Assembly (NCBI RefSeq): GCF_964355755.1
Contig: NC_092680.1
Span: 3,635,001-3,699,000, forward strand
DNA from: Antedon mediterranea
Lineage: Eukaryota; Echinodermata; Crinoidea; Comatulida; Antedonidae
Length of the DNA: 64,000 nt
Direction of reading: 5' to 3'
Each line of letters begins with the position of its first letter. The first letter of the stretch is position 1. Position numbers and translations under genes: made by a program. The notes beneath the pieces are model-generated. The model saw only the letters and a list, made by a program, of their open reading frames with translations. It was not told where the DNA came from and ran no database searches. Shown here piece after piece: positions 85-62,284 of this stretch.

Positions 85-3000
85 CTGTCCAATCCAGCAC
101 TGCATATAGTCTGGGTTGACAGACTGTGCCTTCTTAAACGCTTCATGCGCTAATTTAATATCACCGTGTTTAAGATAAAGTGTTCCTAGATTGGTCCATG
201 TAACTACATCCTGAAACAAAACAATATGAAATTAATATAGTTTAAAAAGACATATATAAGGTTCTGTCTACACTATCAAACTTTATGTGACAAAAAAATG
301 TAATGTGCCCATATATAGACATGATGATGTCATATCATTACCATATTTGGGAATATCACCACCATATTTTGGCACATCACACTTTTTTGGTCAAACAAGC
401 TTGATAGTGTAGACAAAGCTTAATACTTACTGTAGATCATTTAATATATCAATAGCTATTTCTACACCTGCATACACCCCCCTCTATCTAGTGACGATTT
501 AGCTTTCAGGTTTTACAACCAGTCATCATTAGATTTTATAAAAAAACTTACATTTTTGTCAATTTGAATGGCCTTGATAAAAGCATGTTGAGCAAGTTTT
601 GGCAAATTTACCTCTGTAAAATAACACATTTATAAATTAGAAATACTGTTATTATGAATATTATAATATTTTAATTTGTTTATATAATATTATTTTTTTC
701 TCTCAGTTGTTTCACTGTGTTATATCATTAACATAATAATTATCAAAAATTACAATCATAATATAATAATAACATCATAATTAGCAATCAATTAAGAATG
801 TCAATTCTATTACCATATTTTAATTTGTTTATATAATATTTTATTTTTCAGTTATTTCACTGTCTTATAATATTAACATTCTTTTGTCATCTTATAAAAA
901 TGGCTGAAAACCCATCTCTTTCACATAGCATATGAAATGACGTAATTGCCACCTTGTTTCAAGCCTTGTGGACGTAGCGCTTTGGAGAAAATTTATTTTG
1001 GTTAAGCGTTATACAAAAGACAATTATTATTATCCATATTATCATTATTTGAAATTGCCCCATGCAGAATGAATAAAGAATTTGAATGACTAAAGTCTTC
1101 CTTACCTTTAGATGCCCAGATTGTACCCAACGCATTCCAGTGTGAATTGTTATTACTGTCTATAGACACAGCCTTCTTTAAACACTGTTAATAATATAAC
1201 AAAAGAAAACAAATAATATAACAATATTTCAATGTATTCACATTTTTAACAGCCAATCTACAGTAGTTACACATTTGGTAACAACTAAAGAAGTATTGTC
1301 CCCAAAAAATATGAAAATTAATCAAATCAGACTTTAAATAGGCCATTTTGCAGTTTTTCGCAATAGAGTTATTCACTTCTGTTAAAAAAAACAAAAAACA
1401 AAGATATTTCAATTATAAAAAGACAAAAGAAACATTCAATTTTAACCAAAAACCCTTTTCTTACAGTTTTTTTGATTTAAATTACATTTTTTCAGGAAAA
1501 TTATTTTTTTTATCCAGTTTTTGGTCAAATTAAATAACTTATGTGACATTAAAATTGCATATTAAAAAAAAAATTGAAAAAAAAATTGTTTAGGGGGACA
1601 ATATATCTTTAAGTAAATCAAGTAAATAGATAGATTTTTTATAGATTTAGTTATCAGGCCCAATAGTTAATATGAAACTGACCTGTACAGCCTTGTTGGA
1701 CAGTTCTATCTGCTCTGCATACTGAGCTTGTCTAAAGTAGTTTATCCCCAGGTCATGCCAAAGGCTGGCACAGTCTGGTAGTAACTGTAATGCCTTCCCA
1801 TAACATCTATTGGAATAAATAATATAGATTTCTTAGGATTATATTAAAAAAATAAATATGATTATGTTAAGCTCTGTCTACACTATCACACTTTATGTGA
1901 CAAAAAACTGTGATGTGCCCATATATGGACATGATGATCTCATATCACTACCATATTTAATTATATCACTACCATATTTGGCCACATAAAACTTTTTTGT
2001 CACATAAAATATGATAGTGACAGAGTCTAAAGAAGGAAAAATAACTCTTGCCACCTATATTTGCCATGGTAGCAAGCATTCAAAACAAGAATTTTTAAAA
2101 CATAGAGCTTAAAAAGCTTTCACAATTTTACCTTGACCCGATGGCTAAAAGTGCAAATTTCCCAACATCCACAAGGGTTGATGAATCAGAAGTGACATTT
2201 GTGAGGACTGCGGGTATTTTGATGCTGTTCAACAAGAAATTGAAAAAACAAAACAATTAATTAAAATCAACAATCAAGCACGAGAGTACATTAAAATTTA
2301 TAAACTTCAATTTGAGTATTTTGCCTCCTTGGTGTCCAAGTTAAAAAATATAACAACAACACAATACGGAATATTACTTATAAACTACATATGATGTGAC
2401 GTACAGTAAGCTCTATCAAACTTTATGTGATCAACAAAATGTGATGTCATATCACTACCATATTTGGGCATGTCACACTTTTTTTTGTCAAACTAGTTTG
2501 ATAGTGTAGACAGAGCCTTATGGTCCCACATTCACATATTTTGATACAAATGAAATTAATATTTTAGATAAAATAGCTCGGAATATCGTAGTAGCATATT
2601 TACACATACTTTTGTATATCTATTTCATAAATCATATTTTAACACTAAAATTATTAAATATGATACTGTAATATTGTTATTATATTATGTTAATGATCAC
2701 ACACCTTACTAGATCCAGGACATGAAGAATAGTGCATGCATCACCTAGTAATTTCCACAGGCAACTCAAATCGGGACGTAGCATAATAGCCCTGCGAAAT
2801 GAAAAGAAATCGTGTTATTTTTAAGTTTAATATTGATGACTAAAAACATAAACATTGTGTAATAATCTACTTTACTGCCAAATCTATATGAATTGATGAG
2901 TAGTTTGTATCAGGGACAGTATTTTAATAAAGACAGTATTGTTTGGTTTATGGATAATTTTCAAAAATTACCTAATGCAATTTTCACCAGACAGTCATTA

Positions 3001-6000
3001 AAATGCATTTTATTTTCAATAATAAATAAATAAATTCTACACTTTTTCAGTCTCTAATAGTATACAAATAATGAATATTTACGAGTGGAATGGTACAAAT
3101 AATTTCATGAGGTAAAAGATGAAATTCTATTGAAATAGTACATATTATTGCACACCATGTGACCCAAAATTGGCCAATCAAATGACAGGAATATATTTAG
3201 GCGTTATATAATATAACAAGTTAGACTCACTTGTTTAAGGCTGTGATTGAATTAGCAACGTAGTCTACTGCTTTTAGATTCAGAAACTCAACTAGCGAAT
3301 CTTTGGCAAGGAGAAGGTAAGTTTCACCAAGACCTTAAAACACAAATTATTTAATATAATAATAATAAACGATGAATTCACTGTACTTTTGATTATCATG
3401 TATTCCAGAATGTACAGTGGAAGCATAATAATTGCGAAACAGGCCATGAAAATTGGAGAAAAAATTACAAAATAATACATAACAGAATATCTATATTTAA
3501 AAGCGCATTTGGATGTGAATATAAGCCGGAATCATTATTATTCTTATCTACAATTGAAAATATTTTTTCAGACATTTTGAGCCAGCCCGAAGCCAATTTA
3601 TTTTATGAGAGGTGAGTGAATTACCTTTAAGGGCAGGCACATATCCTTCTTGTCTGGTTAGCACTAATTTGTAATCACTTACAGCCTCACTGTACTGTCC
3701 TACTGTTTGTTTAATAGCTGAAATCCTGTAATATTGAGAAAATATCCATTCAAACACTAATGTAAGCATTCATTTTGTTTATTGATTATCTTAATTAGAA
3801 AAATAAATCTTTTTATTAACAAACAAATATGTATATGATTCTTAAACATACCTGTATTATAAATATTACAGTAGTCAATTTAGTAGCAAACATTAATTTT
3901 TTTAAACCACTGGTGGTGCCATGTGAAACAAAAGGCAGGAAAATTCCATTTCAATATTTGTTATCAACATTAATAATTAATATCAAAATAGACTTACTGA
4001 TACTGACAATATATAGAAGATTCATCAAGCTGAAAACAAAAAAAAACAAAAAAACATTAATTCAATTTGTAAGTAACTGTATTAAATTTTAAAACAGTTA
4101 GAAAATGGTATATAACCAAATTCAGAACGGTATTCTTGTATCATATAAGTTAGGGTTATAATTCAGACAATTTCAAAATGTCCATAAACTCGTTATTGTA
4201 ATTACCTCTAGGCTTCTTGTGAATGCTTTTAAAGCTGCTGTATAGCTCCCTCTACTGAGGTACGCTTCTCCCATACACTCCCAACATCGACTGAAACCCA
4301 AAACAACAAATCATGTGATTAGTAAAATTTAAATTTTGCCACGAAATGTGGTGGTTATTTTCGTAGAATAATATCTGAATATTCTTTGATTTTCATAGTG
4401 GAAAGATTTTTACAAAAATTAATTTAAAACATCAAATTAGTAAACACATTTATCCAGTGGTTCAGTGTAGGTAGAATTTAGTGAGTATAAAAATAAATCT
4501 TTTTATGATTTTCACTAATAATTTATTACAAAATTTCATATAATTACCTGTCTTTAGTATCAGCTCTAAGTGCTGCCTGAAAACTTTAAATGCAAACAAA
4601 AATTATATTAAAAGTTGGTTAACGTTAATGAGTAACAAATACTTTATTTGAAGTATAATAAAGCTATGTCTACACTATCAAACATATTTGTGTACATCAC
4701 ACTGTTTTGTAACATAAAGTTTGATAGTGTAGACAGAGATTTACAAGTATGATGTGTTAAATGGTTTTATCAATATTTTCAGAATGTTTGTATTTTCCTT
4801 TTAAATAATATATAAATTATAATAGTAAAACCTTGTAACAGCCTTTCCTGCATCATTGTGTTTGAGTTGATAAAGACCGAGCCTTAGCCACGCCCATTTG
4901 GCCATACCAGCAGCAGCTTGGGAGGTCACTGTCTGCAACATAGACAACGCAGAGTCCTACAAAAAACCATTGTAGCATTGAAAATAAAAGACATTTTAGA
5001 TAGCATTATATAGATTTTTGAAGAAGTAAAATATAGATGTATACCAAAATGGATCTATTAATATAGATATATACCAAAATGGATCCTTTAATTTACCTCA
5101 TCTTCTGTTATGATACAGAGATCAGCAAAGGCAGTACCTGATGCTGCATTATCAGGGTTCAAATCAAAGGACTTCTTAAAGCAACTCTTTGCTCTCCTGG
5201 AGAAATGAAGTAAAACTCTTATCAAATCTTACTAACTGAATTAAGTTTTATAGACTCACAATAAGTACAGAGAACGAGTAGAAGTAATATAAGGTTTGTG
5301 GTATACCAACATTACCATATAATGATACTGTACAATATTATATATTTAATACATATTGTAGTGGAGCTGTAACTTGGTGGTTAACGTGCTTGCCTTCCAA
5401 TCCAAAGGTCCGGGGTTCAATCCTGACCTAGTGCCAGGGTTGTAACTCACCACTCCCTAAACCTAAAATGAGACTTAGTTTATAAGCACGCTAACTTATA
5501 AAAATAGTTTATCCCTCCTGTAATTGGCGAGTTACTCGCTGTTGGATGCGTATGAAATAAATCAAATATAATTTGATAAAAGGAATTAAGCAAGATTGAG
5601 AATATCTCAATGTTTCAGTTGTATTGTTCTCAACTGCCTTTTTATTCATTTTCATAGACTAGCAATGCTAGACATGGCCATATCAATAAAGTAACAAATA
5701 AGAAAAAAATCAAAACCTGATGGATACCTAATATCTTGTGCAACCTGCTGATAATAATAACCAAGATGATGGAATACTTCTGAGTTATAAGGATCAAGTT
5801 TTGCTGCCTTCAACATAGAAACAATAACATTTAATTTATATAAAACTTTAAAATCGATGGATTCTTGTCATCGAGTTTTTATTTATAAATTTGGTAACGT
5901 CAGACTTTATTATGATACAGAAATTTCTTAAAAATTTAACAAAAACATTTTATTTTACCTTCATAAAATTACTAAGACACATCAACCTGTTTTTTCTAGC

Positions 6001-9000
6001 CTCCTCTCCAGACTTCCACTGTATTTTTCCAAGCCATAAAAAAAACTTTGCATTATCTGGTTTGTGTGCAATTGCTTTGGATAGTCTGGTAAAAAAAATA
6101 TATACATATTATAAACTATCTAAAGCTCTGTCTACACTATCAAACTAGTTTGACAAAAAAGTGTGATGTGCCCAAATATGGTAGTGATGCTCAAACATGG
6201 TAGTGATATGACATCATTGTGTCCATATATGGGCATATCACATATTTTTGTCATATAAAGTTTGATAGTGTAGACAGAGCTTAAAACAAATGTTTTTTTT
6301 TTGTTAGTGATAAAAATAGTTAATCATGCATCATATACCTTTCTTCTGCTTCATCATATTTTCCTTGTAGTCCTGAGAGCCAGCCAATCAGAGCTTCTGT
6401 TACAAAATTGTCTGAATCCAACGACACTAGTTCTGTACAATGCTTGAATATATAAAAAAAATAGTTTGATAACATCAAATGATTTAAATACAACTACGGT
6501 GTTCCAATTGATAAACTTTAAATGAAGCAGTATTTAAAAATAATAGAACTATAATGGCAATGTTCCACAGTATTATGTAAAAGAATAAAAAAAAGTTTGC
6601 ACAAGAAAAAAATAAAATAAATTGTGAGATACTGACCTGGTTAGCTTCTTTTAGTTTGTTCAGAAAGCAGCAACATTCCACCAACAACTGCATACACTCT
6701 ATTTTCAAAATTTCTGAGCTTTGCAACTGTAAAAATAAATATTTTTAAGTCTAATTAAAATATTCCATACTTGTATGAATGATGCTTCTCATTAAAACAA
6801 AATAAAATAATACTGTTAAGCTCTGTCAACACTATCAAAACACAAATCAAAAAAATTGTGATGTACCCAGATATGGTTAGTGATATGCCCTAATATGGTA
6901 GTGATATGCCCAAATATGGTAGTGATATGACATCCTCATGTCCATATATGGGCATATCACATTGTTTGCTAGTGTAGAAACAGCTTTAGTTTGTGTTATA
7001 CTTTCTATACTTACATCATTTAATATATCAATAGCTATTTCTACACCTGCATGCGTCCCTCTATCTAGTGACGATTTAGCCTTCAGAAACAAAAATTGTT
7101 CTCTCAAATCTTGCCATCTTGTAAGGCGCTTTAATAGTTTCAGTCCTTAAATAAAAGAAATATTACTTGATAATATAAATAATGAGTATTGTAGTACACA
7201 TGTTTAATGTTACTATAAGAACTAGATGACTAACTTCAAAACACTATAATAGCATAACAGCTTGAAAAGCATTCTACCATAGAGAAGGACTGCCCAATAT
7301 GGATGCACCAATCAGTGTACACAGTATGTGTAACCTACCTTTTTGTGCTGCTTGTTCAACTCTGACATTATCATGAACTGCTATGCTTGCTCTACTAACA
7401 TACAACCAACCATGCACGTTAGTTGGTTCTACTTTTAACCCTAGAAAAAAAAATGAGATAGTACAAAAGATACTTTAAATAACTTTTTACTTTGAAATAA
7501 AAAGACAACGGTTCCAATACTGGACTCTCTGAAAACCAGAAAAAATTTCTTGAGATAAAAAAGGTCACAAATTAATTTTTATCATTAAAACGCTGTACAA
7601 CAAAAATTATTAGATAGGTTAATTCCATAATCTGTTATATTTGTATTTGTTTGACATAATAAAAATAAACAATATATTATACCCTCTTCCAATAATGATT
7701 TTGCTTCAATGTAATTCTCTTCTTCTAGTTTTATTTTACCAAGACATAGGCTTGCTAATCCAGACTTTTCATCGATGGTTTTCAGTTTCTGAATAGCTGT
7801 TATAGCCTCTGCAGTACAGACTGTGAATTAAAACAAAGTTTCATTATTATTTCTATGAAAATCTAACCAACGTACAACTTACTAATTAGTATAATAAAAT
7901 GCTACATTATAAGCAAACAAATATGAAGAGACAAACAACAAATGAACTGACCATTTTGAGTGAGATAGACTTGAACCATTGACTTCAGTGGTTGAGTGGA
8001 TGAGGGCAGTTTGGTGTGCATCTTCTGACTTACTTCAAGAATCTGCTGATCACTGTCATCTTTCTGATTATATTTTAAACAAAACATTTTTAAAATCAAT
8101 AAAAAATTTGTGTGGCTGACATCAGATTGTTTACATAAATCAATATATATTCAAATGTATACTTTAAGATAACTGTATTATTACCATTTTCAATAAATCC
8201 ACAAATTTGACAAAATTGTCTTCCAATGCTGTGTCATCTTCAGTTAAGCCAAGTATGTTTGTGTAAGCAATTTCAAGCTAGAATAATAAAAACAATTTAT
8301 TTTTGGTCATCAATGAATAATGAGTGAGTATGCTAAATCCATTTTTATTGGTTATCCGCACTTGGCGGATAACCCCTTGTTATTGTCAGGATCTTTTTTT
8401 TTTTCTTTTTTTTTTTCTTTTTTTCCTATTTTCTTCTTTCTTTCCACGAATTTTGTTGCACGCATATCTCTAATTCTGGCCAACATAAGATTTTGTAACT
8501 TTGTCATAATATTGACCTGTAGCGGTAGATGTGCAGGACGTTCGTTTTTTTACTTTAGAGTCGCGCAGCGTAAGTTACGCGCAATTTTATGAATTTCAAT
8601 GATTGATCATAGATTAAAAACTAAAAGTCATTTTGTATTGAAACTTGGTGAACATTTAAGTCATATCTTGCGCAAACTTTCTATGGATTAAAAATGGCAT
8701 GTTTCCCATAAAGTTACGCGTGCACGCGAGTTTAAAATTTCAAAATGCGTAAAATCAATTTCTAATCAACTTTCTACGCGTTTCAGGTCATTTTGAGCAT
8801 TTCAAAATTTCCCACGGGTGCGCAATTTTTTTACGCGCGCGTGCGCACGTAGCGCAAAAACATCTTTTTTTTGCTTGATTTTTGTTTTTTCAGTCTTTTA
8901 TAGTAAATTTACCAATTTTCAATCAATTTCGACTTCAAATCACGTCATACGAGCACGTAGAATTGAACAATTTGCGCGCGTTTTTGATGAAAAAGTTCAA

Positions 9001-11771
9001 AAATTCGTCAAAATTATGCCTTTTTTAAAACAGTCATAGATTCTAAACTACGTGGTGAACTTTTTTAAAATTACATATTCTGGTAGTAGATAAGTTGCAG
9101 ATATCAAATCTTGCATCAATATGGCTAACCGGACATTGTGACGTCACCGTATGGCCACTCGAATATAAAATATAGGATTTTTGTCTCTTTCCTCGTAGCT
9201 CGTCACATTTAATATAGCGCATCTCCACTTATTTGTATTCCATTTCCCCCCATTTTTTTATGTTGTCTAGGTCAATCAATTATCTTTCGCACGATTCACC
9301 ATTTTAAAAATTGTGATAACGTCATCATGTTCAAAAGCGTCAATAACTTTGGTCACTTATTTTCACCTATTCTGCACTGTATGTAGTACGTATACAGTAT
9401 ATAGTGTACACCGTATATACTTAGACGTGACGAAAAATAGAGAGCACACTAAAATTGTTTCAATGCCTTAATCGTTTTTCTGTGCGCAATATTCCAACGT
9501 ATGACGTGCACGTGGCCTTTGCGCTGCGGATAACCTAACTCGTCCGTAGTGACGAGTTCAAATCTAGTTTTATTTAACCTTATTTATAGAGGGTGACCCT
9601 AAACCGCATATTCTGACAATCAAGGGGCCCTCTTGATGAGTTATGATAAAGTGTCTATGCGTGACAGTGGCTGTGTGTACTAGTACACTGGGATAACCCC
9701 CTACTCGTTTCGAAGGATGTACTAGGTTCTTTAAAGTGCACATGAGCCAGATGTGTACAAGGACCTACGGTTTATAGTCCTTATTACCCATAAACAAACC
9801 AAAAGACATTACATTCAACACAATAGTAATAAAATAGATACAAAATACAATTGATAAGTAAATAAAGTAATATGTTGTAGTAATAAATCTTGAAAACTGT
9901 AAAATCTTTAATAACTAACCAATGCATTATCCTCTGTTGATAATGTTTTTTCATTTGTCAGATTTGAAGCGAGCTTTGACCACCACATCAACTTCACTGA
10001 ATTATCGTCTACCACGTCTGCATTTAAAATGTCTAAGATCACCATGATAGACTAAGATATAAATAAAGACATAAAAAAACATGTGTTAATTGGCAATGTC
10101 TGGTCTAAAAATCAAGTAAAACCGAATTGAGAGAAAGTACTCCTATTTTTAGTGAGGACTTGCTAAAAAAACTTGGCCTAGCTAGACGCCCTGCTGTTCA
10201 AATGTCAGAATTATACACTGGGACTTTCCCTAGCGAAATGGTTGTATGTGAAGGTGATCATAAAGTCAGGGGTGGGATTATAGCAAAGATGGGACTATAG
10301 CCTATGTGGGACTATAACCGAGGAACTATGGTATATATAAATAAAGTGAAGCAAACAACACCTTACTTACAGTACGATAAACATGTTATACATAAAAGAA
10401 AAGAGTAATAATAAAACTGTTAATGTTGTCAATAATTACACATACCTTCTTTGTTTTATGGAGTGTTTCGTATAGCTTGACTTGTTTCTCAGCCACTGTC
10501 AGCCATTTTGATTTGTCAGTATTGGTTAGAAGACTTGCCATTTGTTGGTATGCCTCAATCAGTGTGTCTTGGTTTTGTTCTGTTTGGTTTCTCTCACATA
10601 AATCACACAAACCCTGTCAAGAGAAGTACAAGTTACAAATTATTTAAATATACAGCTATTCAACTAAAAAAATTGTTAATAAATCAACAAATAAACACAC
10701 AATTTTATAATAAAAAATATATATATAAACTTTATTCCAATGTATTTGTTTTCAATTTCAACCAATATTTTAAATTATTTAGAACCATTTTAAATATTAT
10801 AAATAAAATAAATACATTATTATCTGTTTAGTTTCTGTTTTGGTTTATTGTTTTGTATCTCTTCGATGCTTTTTTAACAAATTGAATTGAATAAATTATA
10901 ATGATAAGTTATGGATGTAATGAATTCTAAGGTATGGTACCTGCCATGCAAGTAACTGATTTGGATCATATTCCGTGGCCTTCTTATAAGCCATTCTAGC
11001 CTGCTCCAATTGCTCCATTTCTGTGGCTGCTTTTCCAATGAATACAAATGCATTGTAGTTGCTTTTATCAAGTTTTAGTACAGCCTATCATAAAAAAAAG
11101 GATAAAAAACATTAGTTACTAGCAACTGAACTCAACATATCTTGTAAAACCAAGTACTCACTGCAATATTAAATATACAATTGAAGAAATAAACCTCTAT
11201 CTACACTATCAAACTTTATGTGACAGAAAAACAAAAATGTGATGTGCCCATATATGGACATGATGATGTCATATCACTACCGTATTTGGGCATATCACTA
11301 CCGTATTTTGGCATACCACTACCATATTAAGGCATATCACTACCATATTTGGGCACATTACACTTTTTTTTGTCAAACTAGTTTGATAGTGTAAACAGAG
11401 CCTTATAAAAGAATAAACTGCAGACAAGGGGATACCATCTTAACGAATGTGGGATTCTCCTTTATTTTTATGCCCAATAGTTGAAATGATTTTGGCCTCT
11501 AGACTTTGGTTTGACACAATGTAGAATCTTGACCCCAGTAACCTTTAACCTGAGCACCTTAATGCCTGCCATGCTCTATGTCATAGGATACAACATCTAT
11601 GATTTTGGATGGAATATTCATAGCATGCATGCATAATATTTTATACAGTTCAACATGTGATATATAAATCACCTTGCATTGTTTTAATGCGTCTTTAAAT
11701 TCTTTATTCTTGATACACTCCCTGGCATTTTTTAATAATGTTTTTATTTCCTTGCTTGAACCGCTTGCCAT
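85..11771 (-). CDS. SKIC3 (TTC37): SKI complex subunit 3 / tetratricopeptide repeat protein 37, N-terminal 891 codons (partial)
   Basis: TPR scaffold of the cytoplasmic SKI complex that feeds mRNA to the exosome for 3'-5' decay. Coding exons in transcript order: 11673-11771 (ATG 11769-11771), 10941-11084, 10446-10613, 9920-10051, 8185-8277, 7952-8063, 7683-7820, 7339-7440, 7015-7145, 6637-6726, 6339-6442, 5959-6085, 5728-5807, 5097-5196, 4832-4956, 4548-4583, 4206-4290, 3998-4029, 3625-3725, 3231-3333, 2705-2791, 2132-2224, 1683-1806, 1106-1184, 552-613, 85-210. All have AG/GT borders, and phases join to a continuous 2673-nt frame. Diagnostic stretches against the vertebrate protein as I remember it: NNYNA-like start of TPR1, [37 protein letters not shown] and CWIGQ at the window edge. 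The exon at 4548-4583 must use the distal AG; the nearer AG breaks the frame. The rest (human protein about 1560 aa) lies left of position 85. Confidence 0.95.
258..422. mobile_element. CArG-MITE (family A) copy
   Basis: Both terminal repeats are present (CTGTCTACACTATCAAAC at the left, TTGATAGTGTAGACA at the right). One perfect CArG box at 341-350. Sits in a SKIC3 intron. Confidence 0.85.
424..508 (-). pseudogene. Broken partial copy of an internal SKIC3 exon inside a downstream SKIC3 intron
   Basis: About 75 bp here repeat the 3' half of the genuine exon 7015-7145, including the sequence for AKSSLDR and AIDILND and even a CTTAC donor-like end. The copy differs at several bases, has a net +2 change in the run at about 477-483 that shifts the frame, and has 5 extra bases before the donor. 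It lies between exons 85-210 and 552-613 and is not needed for phase continuity, so I regard it as a non-functional duplicate. Confidence 0.75.
990..1050 (+). mobile_element. Possible SINE/LINE tail remnant
   Basis: AGCGCTTTGGAG, then TTAAGCGTTATACAAAAGACA, then an ATT-rich run. This resembles retroelement tails seen again at 42.4, 42.6 and 53.3 kb in this window. Assignment is by resemblance only. Confidence 0.3.
1291..1612. mobile_element. Family B inverted-repeat element (GTCCCC ends)
   Basis: Begins GTATTGTCCCC and ends GGGGGACAATATATCTTTA, an inverted pair. The interior has an imperfect long inverted repeat (AAAAACAAAAAAC / TTTGTCTTTTT type arms). Non-coding; in a SKIC3 intron. Confidence 0.65.
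1868..2030. mobile_element. CArG-MITE (family A) copy
   Basis: TIRs TAAGCTCTGTCTACACTATC and ATGATAGTGACAGAGTCTAA. CArG boxes at 1919-1928 and 1972-1981. Confidence 0.85.
2407..2520. mobile_element. CArG-MITE (family A) copy with shortened left end
   Basis: Left TIR has lost about 9 bases (TAAGCTCTATCAAAC). Right TIR TTTGATAGTGTAGACAGAGC is intact. One CArG box at 2458-2467. Confidence 0.8.
4659..4742. mobile_element. CArG-MITE (family A), internally deleted copy
   Basis: 84-bp copy retaining both TIRs (AAGCTATGTCTACACTATCA / TTTGATAGTGTAGACAGAG) but lacking the CArG-bearing core. Confidence 0.8.
5363..5564 (+). mobile_element. tRNA-derived SINE
   Basis: tRNA-like head with an A-box-like GGTGGTTAACG and a perfect B-box-like GGGTTCAATCC (about 5414-5424), followed by a body ending TAATTGGCGAGTTACTCGC and TGAAATAAA. 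The same tail recurs at 41.4 kb, 56.7 kb and (inverted) 61.0 kb, showing a dispersed family. It cannot be a functional tRNA, as the arms do not pair properly. Lies in a SKIC3 intron. Confidence 0.7.
6121..6283. mobile_element. CArG-MITE (family A) copy, reverse orientation
   Basis: Near-perfect TIRs. CArG boxes CCAAATATGG at 6172-6181 and CCATATATGG at 6223-6232. Confidence 0.88.
6817..6987. mobile_element. CArG-MITE (family A) copy with three CArG boxes
   Basis: TIRs are present but partly eroded. CArG boxes at 6889-6898, 6909-6918 and 6942-6951. The internal ~21-bp unit ATATGGTAGTGATATGCCC is repeated, so box number varies by unit number. Confidence 0.85.
8338..9567 (+). mobile_element. 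Helitron-like non-autonomous element (tentative)
   Basis: This block in a SKIC3 intron differs from its surroundings (many CpG and CGCG words around 8.7-8.98 kb). It starts near a palindrome GGTTATCCGC...GCGGATAACC (8349-8376), and GCGGATAACC recurs at about 9526. The right end has hairpin AACTCGTC/GACGAGTT followed after 5 nt by CTAG and then T, as in Helitron 3' ends; a TC preceded by A at 8338 could be the 5' end. No transposase or helicase frame. An alternative is a TIR element bounded by the GGTTATCCGC repeats. Confidence 0.35.
9590..9790. mobile_element. SINE-like remnant
   Basis: Contains TTCTTTAAAGTGCACATGAG and AAGGACCTACGGTTTATAGTC. A related block occurs at about 41117-41180 (ACTTTGAAGTGCACATGTAA, GGACCTACCGTTTTAT). 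The pattern resembles the central part of deuterostome SINEs. Boundaries not determined. Confidence 0.4.
11190..11405. mobile_element. CArG-MITE (family A), expanded copy
   Basis: Longest copy here (about 216 bp), with four tandem copies of the ~21-bp CATATCACTACCATATTTGG-type unit. Perfect CArG boxes at 11248-11257 and 11343-11352; the other units are one base off consensus. Confidence 0.87.
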
Positions 11772-11787
11772 TGTACTACAATCACAA
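11772..11787 (-). other. SKIC3 (TTC37): 5' UTR part of the SKIC3 start-codon exon
   Basis: A polypyrimidine-AG acceptor ends at 11788 (TTTTTCAG on the minus strand), so the ATG exon appears to start at 11787 with only 16 nt of UTR. At least one further non-coding exon is expected upstream, between about 11.8 and 12.6 kb. Its position is not visible. Confidence 0.5.
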
Positions 11788-12359
11788 CTGAAAAACAAAA
11801 ACATTTCTGCATTCTTATTGCTCTTTTTGCACAACGCCCAGGATCATATACGTTATACATTTGACGTATTCGATTGGGAACTTTTGTTGTCAACGTAAAG
11901 ATTCGTTTTTTTTTTCTTTTTGTATTCGAATTGTAAATTTGTGCTCAACAAAAAGTCATTCGAATAGAAAACGTTGACAACGAAAGCTTTTTCGTTAAGA
12001 ACAATCTCAACGCTCAAAATACTCCGGTAAAGAAGAACTCAACGGAAAAACTGTACTCAACGGTGAAAGTCTAAATCGAATACGACAATTATTACAGTAA
12101 CTAATTTAATATTTGACAAAGTATATGTTTATTCAGCACAGTTTATCTGAACTTTAAAACATGATTGCATCACATAATTTAATTAGAAAACATACATGAA
12201 AAATAGGCCAACAAAGATATGTACTGTAGGTAGGTATAGACAGGAGACCATATATGGTGGAGGAGGTTAGTACTATAGTAATACCTCCACACAGACCACT
12301 CCATTTAATATTAAAACAGGCCCTTTATAGTATTAGTAGTAACTATTATACCACGCTCC

Positions 12360-12610: not shown

Positions 12611-12839
12611 TATACGATCTTTGTTATTAGTACAAAGAAACTGCCACGAGGCTTTAATAGAATAATAGAATCATATTTTTTAGCCCTACTACACTATCTT
12701 TGATTGAAGAAATGATGAACATCATGTGTGTTGTTGTCCTCCCCGAGGTTTATCAGAGCGTCATTCTGACGACTGGAGCGCCATTCTCTACTTCTCTACG
12801 GAGCGCCATTTATGCCTTTATTAACTTCAATAATAGAAA

Positions 12840-26748: not shown

Positions 26749-26839
26749 TTAAGCTCTGTCCACACTATCAAAAATGTGACATGTCCATATTTGGGCACAC
26801 TTTTTTCATCAAAATTGTTTGATAGTGTAGACAGCTTTA
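26749..26839. mobile_element. CArG-MITE (family A), shortened copy
   Basis: TIRs TTAAGCTCTGTCCACACTAT and GATAGTGTAGACAGCTTTA. Single CArG box at 26785-26794. Confidence 0.83.
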
Positions 26840-33340: not shown

Positions 33341-33869
33341 GAAAGAAGCAAGTCCAAATTATAGAGGGCGCTATAACATTCTGAACAATATTAAAACCAT
33401 AGAGGGCGCTATACAGAAGTCTAAAGACATTTTACAATTTGTATAATTTAATTCAAGAAAGTCACACCAAGCTAGAACACAAACTATAATTCATAAATGT
33501 ACTTTTAATCTAGAAGAGTGATAAGTGTACAGTATTTTAATTAACCCTTTAATTAAATTGATAGAGATACCTCAGCAAGTGTGTTGATGAGTAAATCATT
33601 TGAAAACGAGATCCTTGTTAATACAGTACAAATAAAATATATTTAATAATAATTTATTTTATTTAATTAATAAATGGATAAAACATCAACTCGTCCGATT
33701 TTGTATATACATTATCAGTTATATTGGCGCCTGACTACAATATTCCTGTAATGAACTATGGAGGTCTACTTTCATCATAACACAAAGAGAATAGTAATCT
33801 CCTTTACTCAAGGCGATTTCCATACAATGTCATTCTCTTCTTTGTAATGTTCTCTTTCAGTCTCTACAC

Positions 33870-33970
33870 CAACATAATGATGTCATACCACTACCATATT
33901 TGGTTATATCACTACCATATTTGGGCATATCACACTCTCTTTGTCAAACTAGTTTGATAGTGTAGACATG
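33870..33970. mobile_element. CArG-MITE (family A), left end lost
   Basis: Right TIR TTTGATAGTGTAGACA present; CArG boxes at 33894-33903 and 33915-33924. It ends about 25 bp from the LRRC61 stop codon, i.e. in the LRRC61 3' UTR region. Confidence 0.8.
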
Positions 33971-38766: not shown

Positions 38767-41700
38767 CTGTAAGGCGGAGTAAAGAAGCGAAAAGAAAAAA
38801 AAATGAATGTAAAAATATAGTAAGAGAGAAGGATAGATAGAAATAAATTGCAGAAGCACTGATAAAAGCACTTATTGTAAATATAATTAGCACAAAAAGC
38901 AACCAAGCAAATATTAGAGGAAAATGTTAAAAATCACAATATATATTCTACGTACATATATGTATGCAAAATTTATGTTGACATTATTACTACCACCACC
39001 ACCACCATATGCTTCTACCCTATACAGCACCCTAGGAATGACCGCACTTCAAGCTTAATTAGGTCTATCGGCCTCTACAGACGGCCATTTTTATTTATTA
39101 AATCTTTTTCCTACAAAGTTATATTATCTATACCTAATTTTACCATGGAATGTCTATCAATATAATCAGACAATAATTTGTATAATTTTGCGTAAAACTA
39201 TTGCAAAGCCCAGTCCACACTACCAAACTTGTGAGGAAAAAAGGTGTCCATAAATGGGCGTGGTATCACATTACATATCAAATCACATAAAAACAGTGAA
39301 AAAGCAATTTGTTAGTTAAATTTAAACATATAGGATTTAGTCATAATTGTTCAAATAAATTTGATAGAATTTGTTGAGTGTGAAAGGGCTTTACTTATTT
39401 TTTTAAAAAAATGAATTTATTTTTCATAACATGATCAAAAAGTTAATAAAAGTTAATTTATAATATGTTGATTCAGGCTTAATAAGAAAAAGCCACATCT
39501 ACAAATTACACTATATTGTAGGCAATAACACAGTATATATAAATTACAAGAGTCTCTATCATGTGTATGCAAATGGACTACATGTCCCTACATTGGCAGA
39601 TAATGACAAAATGCAAACAAAATAATTAATGATTATTTTCTTAAATTCTAGAAAAAAAAAATCAATTGCCTGTAGGAATATGTTTACAGAATTGGGTAGA
39701 AATTAATTAACTAGGAAAAACACACAAATATAATTGTGTAATATAAAACATTTTTAATCAATCACTTTTATTATATATATATATATAAAAAAAGAACCAG
39801 ACATATCATTGGTCCTGTAATTCCATCATTTGGTCAAGCAACCCCCGGTACATTGGTGACCGGCAAGCAAGATGAAAAATAAGCACAAAAAAACAATAAT
39901 AAAAATACAAAATAAGAGTGTTTGACTCCATGTGCTTTTTGTCATTATTAACTCTTTTCACTTGCACAACATTTTTTCTAAACACAATCTATGTCTACAA
40001 ATAAGTTGGTCACTTGTTCTCGAGGTGTTAAGCTTGACCTTGCCACGTATAACTGAAAGAGAAAAAAAAAAATCAGAAAATTATAATAACAAAATTTTAG
40101 CAAATTGCACAGGTAAGCCTGCCACCATTTTCAGTAATTAACATTTTTCAGTATGTTTTATGATTATCTTATTTTGTCACCCGATTCTCATTTATATGGC
40201 ATTAAACTGTATGCCCAGTATCATAGGAAAATTCTGTAATACAATGTCACATGTATCACACAGGCTTATGGCCAACTACAAGAAATAACCGCCCCAGAAC
40301 GGGTACCTCTCCCCACCCCAATGCAGTAGTTTAAACACAATTCACAGTACAAATTTCGTTCATGTTGATATTCCATAGTTCCCAGTAGGGTAACATTCTG
40401 GCACAAAGTGTGATGTCATCAAATATGGTAGTAATAAGCCCAAATATGGTAGTGAAATGACATCATATGTCCATATATGGGCACATCACATTTTTACTTG
40501 GGGTACCCGAGTCTACAGTAAGACTCTCTCATCTTCTCTTCCATCCAACACTATTGAGTAAAAAGTGCAAATTATAAAAGTACTACTCCTCTCTTATTCA
40601 TTGTACTATTGAGCTGGGATTTGGCATGAAAATACTACAGAGACATGTCCTCAAAGCTATAGAGCCGGATTTTTTAATTTCAACCGGATGCAGCCATATG
40701 ACGTCTAGAAGATGGTACCGTATAGCCGTAGCGAGGTTATTGATGTCTTGTGACGTCACATCCCGTCTTTTGACGTCATTACGGCTTCGTTTGCTGTACC
40801 CCAAGTATCGCACATTCATGCTTGTTTTGTAACATAAAGTTTGATAGTGTGGACAGAGCTTTAGCTAACAACATAATAATTATGTTCAAACTAACCTTAT
40901 TTACATAGCATTAACTTCCAGAAGTAGGTTATCCAATTCTTGTTTAGCCGCTTCATATTTTTTTTGCTCCTTCTCAAGATCATCTGGAAAAGATATGAAA
41001 TGATATTATGTTACATATATCCTCAATTTTTGTAATTTTCAAGCATATAATTATAGAAATAGAACATAAAATTCTAAAAAAATTGGGATTAGACTTTCTA
41101 CACACCCACAACAGCGACAGTTCGAAAGATGCGTTGGGTACTTTGAAGTGCACATGTAAGCACTGGACCTACCGTTTTATCAGATTCTCATATCTCAAAA
41201 TATGGCATAATTTGCCCAGTATCATAGGCGAATTCTGTAATACGGTGTCACATGTATCACATGTGGTACCTACATTATGTTAAGTTTAGGCTTATGTGAC
41301 ACTGTGTCATAGAAATTGCCTATGATTACTATGTATATACTATACATACAGTACAGAACTGTGAATAGGCTACTAGTTTTACATCCTTATTATCCAAGAA
41401 GACAACTATCAAAAAAATGTTCGAGTAGTTTTTTATATACGCATCCAACAGCGAGTAATTTGCCAATAACCACTCAGTCACTCAACTCAAGATTAACTGC
41501 AATTTTTATTTCATAATAAAGTTGATTTTTTACTGGGTAAATCAGAACCTTAGTTTATGAATATATCATTTCTTGAATGGTCCATTTACATTCATCGTGA
41601 GCCATTTTATGATTCTTAATTATGAAATTTATTCTTTTGCTTTTTTATTTGTGAAATAACTTCAAACTTGAAAGGAAATTCCAAATGTTTTAAACCAAGA

Positions 41701-44700
41701 ATTATTTTTTATTAATATGTATAATAAACCAATTATTTGTTGGATGATATTGCTAGTTAACTAGCATGGCAATATTTACCTATATTGTATCATAATATAC
41801 ATACAAAATAAATACAAAAAAATTAATATTCGAATTAAACTCCAAATGGGTAGAATAAATCAACAACAGTACTTTGACTTTCCTAAACTATGTTAACATT
41901 TATTTATTTAGTTATTTTAAAGATAAGTTTATTTTTTGTAACAACTGTAAGTATTTAAAGGCAAATAAGGCAACCTAAAGCTCTGTCTACACTATCAAAC
42001 TAGTTAGACAAAAAAGTGTAATGTGCCCAAACATGATGGTAATATGCCAGTGATATGACATCATCATGTCCATATATGAGCACATCAAATTTTTTTTCAC
42101 ATAAAGTTTGATAGTGTAGACAGAGATTTACAAATGTTAATGCCGATAAACAGAATATTCGACTACTACAGATATTGACATAACTGAACCATTAGACAAC
42201 AGAGACCAAGTCTAACTGGGCCATTTGAATTTTGTTATTATTGAACTGATTGTTAATTTAAACATTATTTACTGTCTGCTATTCAATGTTTGATTTCTTC
42301 TATTAAATTGTATATTTTATCCAACTGGTAGTTCTCTACAGTATTAAGATGAAAAAATAGCTGCTGCATTACGGGAGCATGTTTCCATACACATTTGATT
42401 TTAAAAAATGACCGGGATAATAATGTGAAGATATGCTTAAACTTATTGTGCATTAAGCGATATATAAGAACGAATATTATTATTATTAAAAACAAATGTA
42501 TCCAACAAATGTCATAAAAGAGAACAATTAAAAGATAAAAAACTAGCTGCTGCATTATGGGAGCATGTTTCCATACGTGTTTGATTTATAAACGGGATAA
42601 TAATATGAAGATAATGCTTAGAAGTATTGTACATTCAGCGCTTTTATAAGAATGAATATTATTATTATAAAAAACAAATAATAAAAGAGAAAGACAATTA
42701 AAAATTCTTGACGACAAAAAATGACCGACTGGATTCTAACAACGATAGGATGCAATGAAAAGACTGTGACAAATCACAAATGAAATATAACGAACCTCTG
42801 AACAGTTGGCTGATTGGTTAAAAATAATTTAACATTTGTAAAAAGATATTTTATCTGTCTGTATTGGTATTTGTGAGAGTTTTAAATATGTAGTGTTTTT
42901 TTTCACACGGAATAATCAAAGTTATTACCTTCATCTTGCCTTTCATCTTCACAATTCTGGATCATAGTTTTTATTTGAAGTTATTTTTAATCTTTTCTCC
43001 ACAAAAACACAATATTAAAGTCTATAATCTATGATCACACCATGCAGTTTGGATGTTTGTTTGTTGTAATTTTTCCACAAAATCATGCAGATATCAATTG
43101 AGGGCGCTAACAATTACGGTTGAGCGTGCATAGTTGTGTTTACACTTTATAATTATGTTGCGTTTTACAGTGAATTAATAATGTAATGTATACATGAACA
43201 TGCCATGAAAATTATCCATTAAAACGTTTTAATAACAATTCTTTTGTAATGGAATAACAAAAATAATATTACTGGTTATGAATTAATAGTACCTACAAAA
43301 TGAATATATTTATATTTTATAGTTTACTATAGCGAAAGTCTTGAAACACTGAATTTAATAGACCTGTTTTTTCTCATATTTTGACATCAAATTTTTTATA
43401 CTGTATTTTATATTTTTCAAAATTCAAATGATCTACTGTATTTTTCCAACACAAAACTGTTTTCTCCAACCTCAACACAACAAACTAAATTGATCTATGA
43501 TTATTACCAAAATGATTAAAAAACTTAGGTTAGTTACAAATATTATTTCACAATCAAATGAGTTTACAGTGGAACATCCATCCATTAAGAGGACACCTTC
43601 GGGACCCAACTAAGTGTTCCCTGAATAGGGGTTGGCATTGGTGTTAAAACATATATTGCCTCTCATACATGTCCCCTGTATGGGGGTCCCAAATGAGCGC
43701 CTTAAACTGCAATTCAAACCCCACAGACTGAGACTGAAGCTAATTTGAGTATAACAGTTCAACTTGAAATTACAGAATTACTCAATTTAATTTAAGATTT
43801 AGTAGTTTTTGATGACAATGATGATCTATACAATCTATTATAATTCTTAAGTTATATATTTTAAATAATAAAAACATTCCTACATTATATTTAAGATTTA
43901 TATAATAATATGTGACAATAATAATATCATAATGTAGTTATGATGATTAATAAATTTAAAAAATGGCATTTTATGTTCTAAAACTTGGAAGGAAATAAAA
44001 AGTGATAAAATCGTGCAAAAACAAATGCTTTGTATGTATCATTCCTCAACTGAAAACTAACACCAGGAATTTTAAGTAATTTATCAGACATGTGAAATTA
44101 GAGGCTGTTTATGAAGAATCATACAACAATTATGAGCATGATGAGGGGAAGTATAAAAAATAAAATAAATAACTATATGTAGTTTGGAAGGGCTGGTCTT
44201 AGGATGTATTCAAATTATAAACTGTGTGAATAGATAGTAATTTATGTAACTTCTATTCTGTGTGTGAATCATACCTATAGATATAGTAATCTATATAACT
44301 TCTATTCTGTGTGTGAATCGTACCTATAGATATAATAATCTATGTAACTTCTATTCTGTGTGTGATTCATACCTATAGATATAGTAATCTATGTAACTTC
44401 TATTCTGTGTGTGATTCATACCTATAGATATAGTAATCTATGTAACTTCTATTCTGTGTGTGAATCGTACCTATAGATATAGTAATCTATGTAACTTCTA
44501 TTCTGTGTGTGAATCGTACCTATAGATATAGTAATCTATGTAACTCCTATTCTGTGTGTGAGTGAATTGTACCTACAGAGTTTAATAAACCTGACCTCCA
44601 ACCCCTGAAATTTGTTTTGTTTACTTGCTTTAAAATATCTCATTAAATTAAAACATTCCAAAATAGCTACAAATCTATTGTGTCACAGTTAATGTGGAAA

Positions 44701-50700: not shown

Positions 50701-53700
50701 TATTTTTATTATTTTATGTTTAAAGAATATATAAATTTGTACTGAAAACAAATTTTGTTCATTTGCAAGTCAAATTCGATTTCATAATCACCAGAATAAT
50801 ATCTGTTGCGTCTAATCCTACCAATTCTGCCTTCGTGTATTATGTAATCAAAACCATAATCTCACCTTTTAGCAACGCTAAGTTGTTGATCATACCTATC
50901 ATTTTCAGCTTCAAGTATCTTATTCTTGTTACTCACCTAGTGAGTAGGAGGGATAAAACAAACATTTCATTGATGAAAAAAAAAAAAATTAAAAAATGTA
51001 CCAGAAAAGATGTACTGTACATGTAGCAACAGGAATGATATTATATTATACACGATGGTCAATAACACATTTGATAAAAATATGTTCAAGTAAATAAATG
51101 CGTGGTTTGTATCCAGAAAATAATTGTCTGTTTTAATGTATTGTAGTTTGTTGACTGCTACAAAAAATATTGTATTTGAGAAGCGATTGCCAGATGTATT
51201 GGTAATTTACATATTGTTCATATTTGTGCTGTGGTTCAAATAGGAAGGTACTGTAGCTCTTAAGCGTGGTTCCCACTAGCGACGCAACCCAAGGACGTAA
51301 CGCAAGTGAATTGACTAATCACAAGCGATGGTTTATTCGCTTGTGATTGCTAACTGTCTATAACTTCGCTTGTCATTGGTTAAAACGCTTGCGTTGCGTT
51401 TACGTCTTTGCGTTACGTTCTAGTGGGAACCAAGCTTAAAACTAGCCAACAATTTGGTAGTGACCACATTTTAAAACTTAAGTTTTGTGCAATAGTGTGT
51501 GTGTATTCTGTATATTAATTTTTGTATATTTTATATTTATCTGTTTTTTTCGTACTATTTGCCAATCTTGAAGAAGAATTTCTATTGTTATTTTATTATG
51601 ATAATAATTGACAAATAATGCATTTATTATTCAATGTAAATTAGCTTTAGTCTTCCCAAATAACACTTGAATATTTAAGAAAGTTAAAAGGTAAAGGTTG
51701 TCAAAGGTCAAGAAAGTATACAGATACTATTAATTGTTCAAATAATTTTTCCCTCAAATGAATTTTCTTCAATTATAAACCGCAATTAAGAGTAAATTAT
51801 TATCTCATTTGTTGCCATGGTTACTGATTGTTACCTCTTCAAATTTGCGGTCAGTCTCCTCTGCAATTTCCTTTAACTTTTGTACTTGTTCCTCCAAAGA
51901 AGCAATCTGGAAACAAACATCAAACAAATTAATAAAATACTTCAAAATAATTTGCTTATCGGTGAAATTGTATAAAGCTCTATACATTATCAATTTTATG
52001 TGACAACAAAATGTTATGTGCCCATATATAGACTTGATGATGATCATATCACTACCATATTTGGGCATATCACTAGCATACTTGGGCACATCAGTTTGAA
52101 AGTGTAGACAGAGCTTTAAATAAATGTTTGCTTACCTTCTCATCATCTGTATTGCTGCGGTTTTCCAATACTTTCCTCATCCTATAAAATAAAAATAATA
52201 TGCGAGCTTGAAACAGTGATGAGAAGAAAAGTATTGTATTAAACCAGACATTATGCTACCCCGTGTCTATGGATATCATGCGTCCAAATTATCACTTCAT
52301 TCAATACAATTTTGTTTGTAAATTAATTGTAATTGTATGGAAATATTTTTCCAGTAAAAAAGTAATATATTTTTATTACATTGCAACTTCCACGCCCTCC
52401 TAACAGACACCACGCCACGGACAATATGTACATACTGTTGGTATTTGTCGCAGCCAGACATAAGATCAAAGGACTAGTACAAGTTCCTATCTTGGCAAGG
52501 CAAGCTCAGTGTCCCGATGGCCTTGCTTCTAGTGTATATTATGTTAATAGGATATAAGTATTCTATCCAGGGTAATCTAATTTTCAAATAACACTAGTGA
52601 GAAGAATAGCATATCCTTTATGAATATTTAAGAGACAATTGTACTGCATATAAAACATTATTCAAATACTTCTAATACTAACTATATTACTTTAATATAA
52701 TAAATACAGTACGGTATATTATCATATCATGTTATTTTTCATTTTATTATAAATATGATCATACATCGTACACAGGACCAAAAGATTTACATCCCATTCA
52801 AAGGATGATGCAAAGCGAGTATCTTGTCCAAGGATACCACATAGAGGAATCGAACCTATGCCTCTTACATGCTAGTTCAAATCCCTCATCATTATGCCAC
52901 TCTACTGTATGTTTTGATGTCTCTATGACAAAATGAATACAAGCTGTGATATAATGATAGCAAACGTCAGACAGTACACAAACCTGTCACCTTGCATTTC
53001 TTCAGATTCTATTGATCTTATCACACCCTTTTAATTTCCGATATAATCGGTATCAAGTCCACTGAATTAGACCGTAAGGATTTCCTATCTGATATGATAA
53101 TCATGTTTATTGCAGTGTATACTGTAACTTACTCAGTATAACATTCATCTGCTTAAAGAGAAATTTAAATTTAAACCGCATATTGTAGCTTGTCACATGT
53201 AGAATCTGTATCTATCCTGAGCGGAATTGGCTTATATTCCAGGGGAAGGGCTGGGATTTGTGGATGGGTGGAAAGAGGGTCGGAATGCATTATCGGAGTA
53301 GGTTTCCATGTGTATGATCAAAAAATGACCGGCATAACAATGTGAAGCATGCAGATGTTGTTACAATCCAGTGTACATAATGGAAAAGGATTTGTACAAT
53401 AACTCTGTACCTCTATATCATCTATGGATCTTTAATACATTATTAAATATTTGAGATAATAATTAATGGAAAAGAGTGCATGTTACTCATCTTTCTACTG
53501 TAGATGTGTTTAATTAACAAGAGATCCCACTAGACTACAATATAGATGGTAACACTTTCTAATTAACTTGCTAAATACAGTACTTTTTCAAAGAAAACAT
53601 GTCATCAACTAATATTTTCGTAAAAGGTATCAGTACAAAATGATTCTATTCTGTAAAAAGTCATTTTGAAAACCAGAGTGTTTGGAATTAAATGTTAATG

Positions 53701-56700
53701 ATTATTATACCTCTATAGTAAGTAGTAATGGCATAATTGAAAATTTAAATGTTTTTAATAAAGGTAAGGAATTAATTTATAATTTATCCATTAATGGCTA
53801 GAGATTACCGCCAAGCCAAACTGATAATTACTGTCAGAATCCAACAAAACAAAAACTGTCGCTGCAACAAAAAAACAAGGCTTCATATTGAACTCGTAAT
53901 GAAAATATCCTAGTACTGTAAGGTGGGTGTGGTGTGTTGGGTGGGCGTGACATGTGTTGGGTGGGCGTGACATGTGTTGGGTGGGCGTGGCCAGTGTAGG
54001 GGGTGGCCTGAGAAGGTTAGGAAATGGGAACCTACAAAAGCTTTTTATTTTGAACGTGTTTGTCGTGGTCCGACATAAACATTCATCAATTTCATCAGTT
54101 ACAATTCACCGGTGCGTGTTTATCATTACTAAGTTTGTGCCAGTAATTAGGAGAAGATACGTTGTATTACAGTATTTCATGATCACACAATTATTAACAA
54201 TTTTACTTAATACTAAATAGTATAAAAGAAATCAATTTCTGAAAGCGTGTTTGGATACTTATATTAATCTACTTTCATCTCTAAATAGAAACCACAATGA
54301 AATGTGATAATTGACTACAGTAATAGAAAAATTCTTTCCAGGTTAGTCATTTGTATTTAGTACAATTTGCATATAGCCCAAGGGATTAACTTAACAGTTT
54401 TAATTTAATACTAAATTGAATACAATAGTTTCATTGTATAAAATGCTAATAGTGAATGAGGTAATAAAAATGAATTGGTTGAATTTACTTTTAATGTGAA
54501 ATGACGAATAGTAACAAGTTTATTATCAATTCACTAAACAATAAAAATCATAGTCTCCATTTCATTCTTTAAAATCTTTCTTTAAAATAATCTGGGCTAG
54601 CATACTGTACCTGAATTAGGTTGTGTTAAGGTAGGAGGGAAGGGAGGCAGGGGGATACCCACCTACAGTACTACAAACAAGGCTTATTTTAACCTTTGAA
54701 CTACACTTAATCCTTGCACTCCATTTAATTTTACCATGTAACAACTATCAAAGAAACCTAAGACTTTCAATGACAGCAGAATATAAAATAATAAGATGTG
54801 TCCATATGGACATGATGATGTCATATCACTACCGTATTTGAGAATATCATTACCATATTTGGGTACAAAACACTTTTTTTTGTCATTGAACTAGTTAGTT
54901 GATAGTGTAGACAGATCTTAAGACCTTGTTTATGTAATACTGTATATCCTCAATTTTAAAGACCATGTAATATTGTACATCCTTAATTTACAGTAATTAT
55001 GATAATCCTACAGACCCAACCCAAACAAATTGTAATATAATCGGATCCTGTAACAAAATTGAACAAACAATTTTTGTATCCACCAAGTTTCTGTGAGTGG
55101 GCAGTGGCGAAAAAATGTTACCATCACCCGAGGTTCAAGATGCACTAAAGGTCAACGGTGGTCAATCAAATAAACACCTTTGTAGCTAAAAGTTACACAG
55201 CGATAAACGGTTACAACTACATACTAATCGTTATTTTCATTTAACCGTTTCTGCTGCCAAAAATTGGGGAAAAACTAATTAATTCACATGGAAAATTAAT
55301 CATCTATTTTTATGCAGCAGAAACACTACCTATGTCTACTTGCAACAGGCAAACTCTGTTCAACACCGGATACCTGTGGGCTTTAAGAAATGATAGTATT
55401 ACTGTACGAATATGTTTTGAATCGTTAAAAAAAGAAATTAGGACCTTTTTAACCTCTCGATAGTTTGTTTTTTGGAAGACTTTCCGGTTTTTAAAGAGTC
55501 TGGTATTGAGAGAGTTGATTTTAGTTCAAAATGAAGAATGTGGTTTGCAATATAAAACAGTGAAACCCCTGTTTTAATTTTCTATCCATATGAGTCTTCG
55601 ATTTTTCACACTTCATCAAGTTATAATGGTAAATGCAGGAGCCTTGCTAAGTACTATTACTCAACAAGTTTCTATTCAAAGAACTAAGTCTCTTCCACAA
55701 TAGAATTCACTAAGAATACTCAGCACAGCAAACAATGCGTTGTATAATTAGCCAACAGTTTGGGATAATAGAACCGCTTAAAATGTTTGTTAGTCTCTGA
55801 TTAGATCATGGACTATGAATGGAATTTGGTGAAACTATAATGATTCAAGTGGGGTTTATTCAAATCCTTTATACAAACGCATTTACTACAAAGGACTAGT
55901 AGTAGAATAACCATTCTAGAAAAATATATTTCAAACTATAAGTAATTAGACTATAAAGCTCTGTCTACACTATCAAAATATGTGATATGCCCATACTGTA
56001 CATGGACATGATGATGTAATATCACTAACATATTTGAAAATATCACTACCATATTTAGGCACAACACACTAGTTTGATAAGTGTAGACAGAGCATTGGTA
56101 ATCAAATTTCGATTCTGATAACAGTGTGCATTATGTTTATTGTGACAGTTAGCTGGAAACGTATTGTAATAGACGGCTTTTAATTTGCGAAGACCGAAAA
56201 AAGTCATGTCAATTCATTGTATGCATGCCGGGATGTTGGGACACACTTCCTTGTTCCACACATAGACATTTACGACATGGTTCGGGCAATGAACAAGTAG
56301 GTTAGCTCAAACGATGCGTCGTTCGTTGTCGTAGATTGAAAGCCCCCTCATTAAACTATATAAACCGGTCCTTTTAATGAGTATATTGTAACTTGGTTTT
56401 GACAACCACCATCACTTCTCTATGTCATCTTTAGGAAAAGGTTTATCACCTTTATTTAAACTCGAAATGATAGATTTTCTCCATTTTTAATCATATCCTT
56501 AAGCTCTGTATACACTATCAAACTTTATGTGACAACAAAATGTGATGTGCCTATATATGGACACGGTGATGTCATATTACTAGAATATTTACAGTAGGCA
56601 CATCACACTTGTCAGAACTAGTTTGATAATGTAGACAGAGTTTTTAAGATCACATTTTTTATCATCATCTATATTTGGCGAGTTGCTGGATGCATATGAA

Positions 56701-58592: not shown

Positions 58593-58680
58593 CTACAAAG
58601 ATGGATAAAAATAAATAAAAGGTGTACACACAATTATCAGTGATAACATAGTAGGACTTGACTAACCTTCAAGTTCACAC

Positions 58681-58862
58681 TTAAGCCGTGTCTACACTAT
58701 CAAACTTTATGTGACAAAAAATTAATATGTATCCATATTGTATGGACATGATACAGTATGTCATATCACTACCATATTTGGGAATGTTACTACCGTACCA
58801 TATTTGGGTATATCACAGGTTTTTTTTCTTCAAACTAGCTTGATAGTGTAAATATACCTTTA
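58681..58862. mobile_element. CArG-MITE (family A) copy
   Basis: TTAAGCCGTGTCTACACTAT and CTTGATAGTGTAAATATACC. CArG boxes at 58772-58781 and 58798-58807. About 90 bp upstream of the tropomyosin exon 58459-58592. Confidence 0.85.
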
Positions 58863-59468: not shown

Positions 59469-59606
59469 TTAAGCTCTGTCTACACACAAATGTGATGTGC
59501 CCATTATATGGATGATGTCATATCACCATACCATATTTGGGCACATCACACTTTTTTTGTCAAACTTTTTTTGTCAAACTAGTTTGATAGTGTAGACAGA
59601 GCTTAA
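59469..59606. mobile_element. CArG-MITE (family A) copy abutting a minisatellite
   Basis: TTAAGCTCTGTCTACA and TTTGATAGTGTAGACAGAGC. CArG box at 59531-59540. Partial internal duplication TTTTTTGTCAAACT. Confidence 0.85.
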
Positions 59607-59607
59607 T

Positions 59608-59808
59608 TGGGATGTCCCCTGATTAGGGATGTCCCCTGAATAGGGATGTCCCCTGAATAGGGATGTCCCCTGAATAGGGATGTCCCCTGAATAGGGATGT
59701 CCCCTGAATAGGGATGTCCCCTGAATAGGGATGTCCCCTGAATAGGGATGTCCCCTGAATAGGGATGTCCCCTGATTAGGGATGTCCCCTGAATAGGGAT
59801 GTTCCAAA
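59608..59808. repeat. 17-bp minisatellite, about 11-12 copies
   Basis: Unit GGGATGTCCCCTGAATA with occasional GATTA variants. Because 17 is not a multiple of 3, three frames stay open through it; these are not genes. Confidence 0.93.
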
Positions 59809-60970: not shown

Positions 60971-61025
60971 TTTTTATTTCATACTCATCCAACAGCGAGT
61001 AACCCGCCAATTACAGGATGGATGC
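60971..61025 (-). mobile_element. SINE tail fragment
   Basis: Inverse of CCTGTAATTGGCGGGTTACT and CGCTGTTGGATGAGTATGAAAT, the tail of the SINE at 5363-5564. Confidence 0.55.
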
Positions 61026-62227: not shown

Positions 62228-62284
62228 TTAAGCTCTGTCTACACTATCAAACTAGTTTGACAAAAAGGTGTAGACAGGGCTTTA
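62228..62284. mobile_element. CArG-MITE (family A), 57-bp deletion relic
   Basis: TTAAGCTCTGTCTACACTAT followed almost at once by GTGTAGACAGGGCTTTA; the core is gone. Confidence 0.8.

Follow-up and report, generated by a model that had tools for sequence, protein, structure and literature searches.

The 64-kb window, meaning the whole stretch of DNA that was analysed, carries many copies of one palindromic MITE with perfect CArG words, CC(A/T)6GG, and by estimate, one in two of the genome's words of this type comes from this family. We favour, with a probability of roughly 80%, the reading that the element is a non-autonomous palindromic cut-and-paste MITE of about 30,000 copies, and that its amplification multiplies CArG words as passengers which decay neutrally.

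Structure and consensus of the element

The element is a MITE: it is short and non-coding, has conserved TIRs and TA/TWA target sites, and is dispersed at high copy number. Full-length copies have 125-230 bp in the alignment model, typically about 125-190 bp, and no coding capacity at this length; one full-length copy has an insertion of about 200 bp. The consensus, derived from 87 copies of the window and of genome samples, is TAAAGCTCTGTCTACACTATCAAACTTTATGTGACAAAAAAATGTGATGTGCCCATATATGGACATGATGATGT + n x (CATATCACTACCATATTTGGG) + CACATCACACTTTTTTTGTCAAACTAGTTTGATAGTGTAGACAGAGCTTTA, with the conserved TIR TAAAGCTCTGTCTACACTATC at both ends, and the copies have a mean identity to this consensus of 93% at aligned positions. 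Among 53 full-length copies, the unit number n is 1 (20 copies) or 2 (25 copies) and otherwise between 0 and 5.

The consensus folds on itself to a hairpin with hardly any interruption (DNA energy -56.9 kcal/mol), with two 62-nt arms that differ at a few positions only. There is one perfect CC(A/T)6GG word in each arm, and the two boxes oppose each other within the stem: the arm ending with CCATATATGG is an inverted copy of the arm starting with CCATATTTGG. Thus, the MITE has two boxes because it is a palindrome, with one ancestral box being seen twice, and boxes beyond these two are caused by tandem copying of the 21-bp unit that contains a box. At least one CArG word is present in 0.4% of Markov-1 shuffles of the consensus; such a frequency is low for any single motif, but not surprising across the several hundred known TF motifs that could have caught the eye.

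The family may have evolved from a founder element that had a CArG word in its arm; the long inverted repeat would then provide one box per arm, CCATATATGG in the first and CCATATTTGG in the second, and the 21-bp unit, which includes the second box, would expand in tandem via slippage or unequal exchange. We infer this order of events (founder box, one box in each arm, unit expansion). Transposition would spread the CArG words genome-wide as passengers; once inserted, the boxes decay as fast as the other positions of the element. Mobilisation is presumed to occur in trans, via a transposase encoded at another locus, as no autonomous partner was found in the sampled sequence.

Target sites and transposon class

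The flanks of 27 copies are not scorable; 31 of the 32 scorable copies have TA or TWA flanking both ends. A duplication of TWA points to PIF/Harbinger and a duplication of TA to Tc1/mariner. The respective MITEs, Tourist (PIF/Harbinger) and Stowaway (Tc1/mariner), resemble the element described here in being short and non-coding, with high copy number, long TIRs, TA or TWA target sites and a hairpin-forming consensus. In contrast to both, the target-site duplication of this MITE is mixed: identical TWA is found in 18 of the scorable copies, TAA on the left with TTA on the right (TA only) in 13 and the reverse in one, proportions that are biased because many copies were picked via a TAAAGC or TAAGC end. 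In the unbiased subset the corresponding numbers are four, two and one. The TA-only class often reads C-TA-G, and it is hard to derive both this class and the identical TWA class from one transposase. The element is not assigned to either superfamily because the duplications are mixed and the sampled sequence revealed no transposase that has such ends. A search for Harbinger transposases returned at least 150 DDE_Tnp_4 matches in the genome. No different interior was found beside the unpaired TIRs of 30 loci: all were ordinary MITEs with one end damaged or missing. Joined MITE flanks identified no usable empty site in the sampled genome sequence, and the TIR sequence was not found in print in the literature searched.

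Copies within the window

A profile-seeded, unit-aware alignment identified 22 MITEs in the window, fragments included, in agreement with the about 20 copies claimed by a sequence-only reading of this DNA, and TIR matches (up to 4 edits) are spread over positions 257-62272. There are 31 perfect CC(A/T)6GG words in the window, of which 26 are inside a MITE copy or at most 40 bp away from one, close to the previous count of about 25, and five are elsewhere. The window is about four times denser in MITEs (22 per 64 kb) than 13 arbitrary 8-kb regions (9 per 104 kb).

The copies differ in unit number, completeness and box content. A complete copy with one unit (35011-35155, plus strand) is flanked by C-TA and TA-G and has boxes at 35062 and 35094. 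Copies with two units are 257-421 (plus, near full length, box 341), 1868-2025 (plus, boxes 1919 and 1972), 6121-6282 (minus, boxes 6172 and 6223), 51973-52118 (plus, box 52055), 54788-54919 (plus, box 54853) and the 5'-truncated 33865-33968 (plus, boxes 33894 and 33915). Two further MITEs are at 58683-58862 (plus, boxes 58772 and 58798) and 59471-59604 (plus, box 59531), one is cut by the window edge (1-85, plus, boxes 11 and 43) and one lacks the left box (2405-2519, plus, box 2458). Internal deletions are present in 4660-4742 (minus, no box) and 26751-26839 (plus, box 26785), while 40398-40496 (minus, boxes 40440 and 40471) is a core without TIRs. Boxes are lost from 55954-56096 and 56501-56644 (both plus), and 41976-42130 (minus) has no perfect box but CCATATATGA and CCAAACATGA. 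The remaining fragments are a degenerate one with approximate limits (39205-39273, minus, box 39248) and two MITE ends, 40810-40862 (minus) and 62229-62272 (minus, core deleted).

Two copies are expanded: 6818-6988 (minus) has three units and boxes at 6889, 6910 and 6942, and 11190-11405 (plus) has four units. TRF confirms the tandem unit of about 21 bp that had been noticed before, at 6858-6929 (3.4 copies) and at 11270-11355 (4.1 copies). Structurally, 11190-11405 does have one box per unit, but most of these boxes are mutated: of the four, the one at 11343 alone is still a perfect CArG word, the other three read CCGTATTTGG, CCGTATTTTGG and CCATATTAAGG, and the only other perfect box of this copy is at 11248.

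The MITEs 257-421 and 6818-6988, which have opposite orientations, adjoin tracts that are 90% identical (428-510 and 7008-7086) and resemble an exon shared by neighbouring gene duplicates; this suggests that the two MITEs were independently inserted into matching introns. The end of the MITE 59471-59604 is abutted by an array of a 17-bp unit (59605-59802, 11.6 copies, 97% matches). Positions 27963-29687 (minus strand) contain a probable gene whose product has an Rv2258c-like winged-helix domain and, after it, a SAM methyltransferase domain.

Contribution to the CArG words of the genome

The genome has 354 Mb in 11 long and 7 short contigs. In the 20.6-kb contig C17, the first 10 kb contain no long open frames when read with the invertebrate mitochondrial code. 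Extrapolation from the nine copies in the 104 kb of arbitrary regions gives about 30,000 MITE copies genome-wide, and matches are dispersed over several chromosomes. With up to one mismatch, the TIR has 16,734 matches in the genome and its reversed control has none; a 25-mer of the MITE end has 25,102 matches with up to two mismatches.

The word CC(A/T)6GG is present 66,265 times, compared to 20,176 times for the reversed GG(A/T)6CC. Of the two family words, CCATATTTGG, counted in both orientations, is found 23,460 times (514 reversed) and CCATATATGG 11,568 times (531 reversed), together 35,028 versus 1,045, a 34-fold excess. Their share of the genome's perfect CArG words is 53%. That the MITE supplies about half of these words is an estimate, because some family words could lie outside the MITE family, as they do at position 12248 of the window and in an array on C1 at 89283 that has a different, 38-bp period. 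The claim of a high-copy MITE that spreads perfect CArG words, made from the window sequence, is thus borne out at the scale of the genome.

The abundance of CArG words could also be an effect of base composition in an AT-rich genome, with no contribution of the MITE. CArG words other than the two family words do exceed their reversed control (31,237 versus 19,131, by subtraction), but we consider this explanation extremely improbable, given the 34-fold excess of the family words and the positions of the words in an unbiased set of 168 kb (window plus random regions): this set has 45 CArG words and 10 GG(A/T)6CC words, and 34 of the 45 are in or beside MITE copies that cover 2.3% of the sequence. 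At L013:3965-4106, about 150 bp away from a MITE, there is a separate 33-bp minisatellite with five CCTTATATGG CArG words.

Decay of the boxes

Copies for the decay test were sampled at random or via the TIR, never via the box. When base composition is equalised, substitutions have a rate of 7.5% for the left box, 9.5% for the unit box and 8.3% for the other core positions, and the bootstrap intervals of the differences between the boxes and the remaining core include zero. The left box is intact in 27/56 cases and the unit box in 62/131, with 47.8% and 47.1%, respectively, expected if boxes undergo substitutions as the core outside them does. For a genome-wide count, perfect matches to the 27-mer TATCACTACCATATTTGGGCACATCAC were compared with matches that were selectively relaxed: 3,058 places are perfect, and the number increases to 3,515 when the CC of the box is relaxed, to 3,885 for the GG of the box and to 3,578 for two C's outside the box. 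The changed fractions are therefore 13.0%, 21.3% and 14.5%, respectively, with standard errors near 0.6%. The CC of the box shows marginally fewer changes than the C's outside it (about 1.8 standard errors) and the GG is least conserved, partly because a box-less TTTAA variant of the unit has spread.

Thus, as a class, the MITE boxes decay at the neutral rate, like the remaining element. Neither the sampled copies nor the genome-wide 27-mer count revealed better preservation of the boxes than of neighbouring positions; this is the first half of the outcome that the sequence-only reading named as refuting its idea. Special maintenance of the boxes was rejected, as intact fractions match the neutral expectation in the sampled copies and the genome-wide count agrees. 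An average that is neutral is compatible with selection on a small minority of copies.

Host SRF and possible binding of MITE boxes

One SRF gene was detected in the genome; its two exons are on C10. One MEF2-like gene is on C11. The DNA-binding core of this SRF is identical to human SRF at 83 of 86 residues (about 96%), and the MITE words are therefore very probably bindable by SRF in vitro. SRF selection motifs favour TGNCC(A/T)6GGNCA, and the left MITE box TGCCCATATATGGACA presumably fits this motif.

A subset of MITE copies could have been co-opted as SRF-dependent regulatory sites, comparable to the Helitron CArG boxes of PHERES1. The near-identity of the SRF core to its human counterpart, the roughly 34,000 perfect family words above background, several MITE copies that by eye adjoin apparent exons, and the precedent of a MADS factor that binds transposon-borne CArG boxes (PMC6914339) all speak for co-option; the neutral decay of the boxes as a class speaks against it, and we regard it as unlikely. 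Similarly, it is doubtful that the MITE, as the source of about half of the perfect SRF boxes, rewires part of the SRF targets or serves as a sink for SRF throughout the genome. Most MITE copies probably have no SRF-dependent role. The suggestion that the family seeds SRF sites stands in so far as CArG words are amplified in a genome that encodes SRF, but there is no sign that the words are kept for SRF binding; seeding is possible only as an occasional by-product.

Comparison with known transposon families

In Arabidopsis, RC/Helitrons distribute CArG boxes of PHERES1 that are bound in ChIP-seq and linked to expression (PMC6914339). The MITE family shares with these the copying of CArG-like MADS-factor motifs across a genome; it differs in being an animal MITE with SRF as candidate factor, in its neutral decay and in being known from sequence alone. 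Plant MITEs also amplify TF-binding words, for example E2F sites in Brassica. In both cases the high copy number of a MITE makes one TF word dominant among its kind in the genome. The two cases differ in the motif, the kingdom of the host and the element, and the family described here is known only from its sequence. In our best reading, it is of a kind already known, a MITE that amplifies a passenger TF motif, at a striking scale.

The family provides a countable case of a transposon that shifts the genome-wide abundance of one TF word, and it makes testable the question of what happens to a factor that is confronted with tens of thousands of new perfect sites. If our reading is true, one MITE family is the source of about half of the SRF boxes of an animal, including arrays of up to 16 boxes among the places listed. 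The neutral decay is also a caution, since regulatory use cannot be deduced from the enrichment of a motif in a transposon family.

Tandem expansion and satellites

Three consecutive units, with up to three mismatches, match at 2,183 places genome-wide. Among the places listed, the longest perfect array of the 21-bp unit is at C2:39109537-39109872, with 16 units and thus 16 perfect boxes; further perfect tandem arrays are at C2:38190284, C3:36213275 and C3:3029142. The boxes in such arrays are spaced by two helical turns.

The box or the 21-bp unit could be an internal transposition site, recognised by the transposase or a host factor, with its resemblance to an SRF site being incidental. The unit is reiterated with a period of two DNA turns and is symmetrical in both arms, as this explanation would predict. 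However, copies with no unit, without an intact box or with a deleted core are common, the box-less TTTAA variant is common and recurs in separate copies, and the core with the box varies more than the TIRs do, a comparison that is biased, as most copies were chosen by their TIR. We consider an internal transposition site quite unlikely, even more so than co-option, and prefer amplification of a passenger word.

The TIR, too, has turned into a satellite: at L002:1375-2990 (C1:410764-412379), a 42-bp unit that consists of the 20-bp TIR and AACTGCTCAACCACTTTCTCT extends over at least 1.6 kb and finishes in a MITE-like end. In another array, at C1:1406557-1408783, the TIRs are spaced by multiples of 92 bp.
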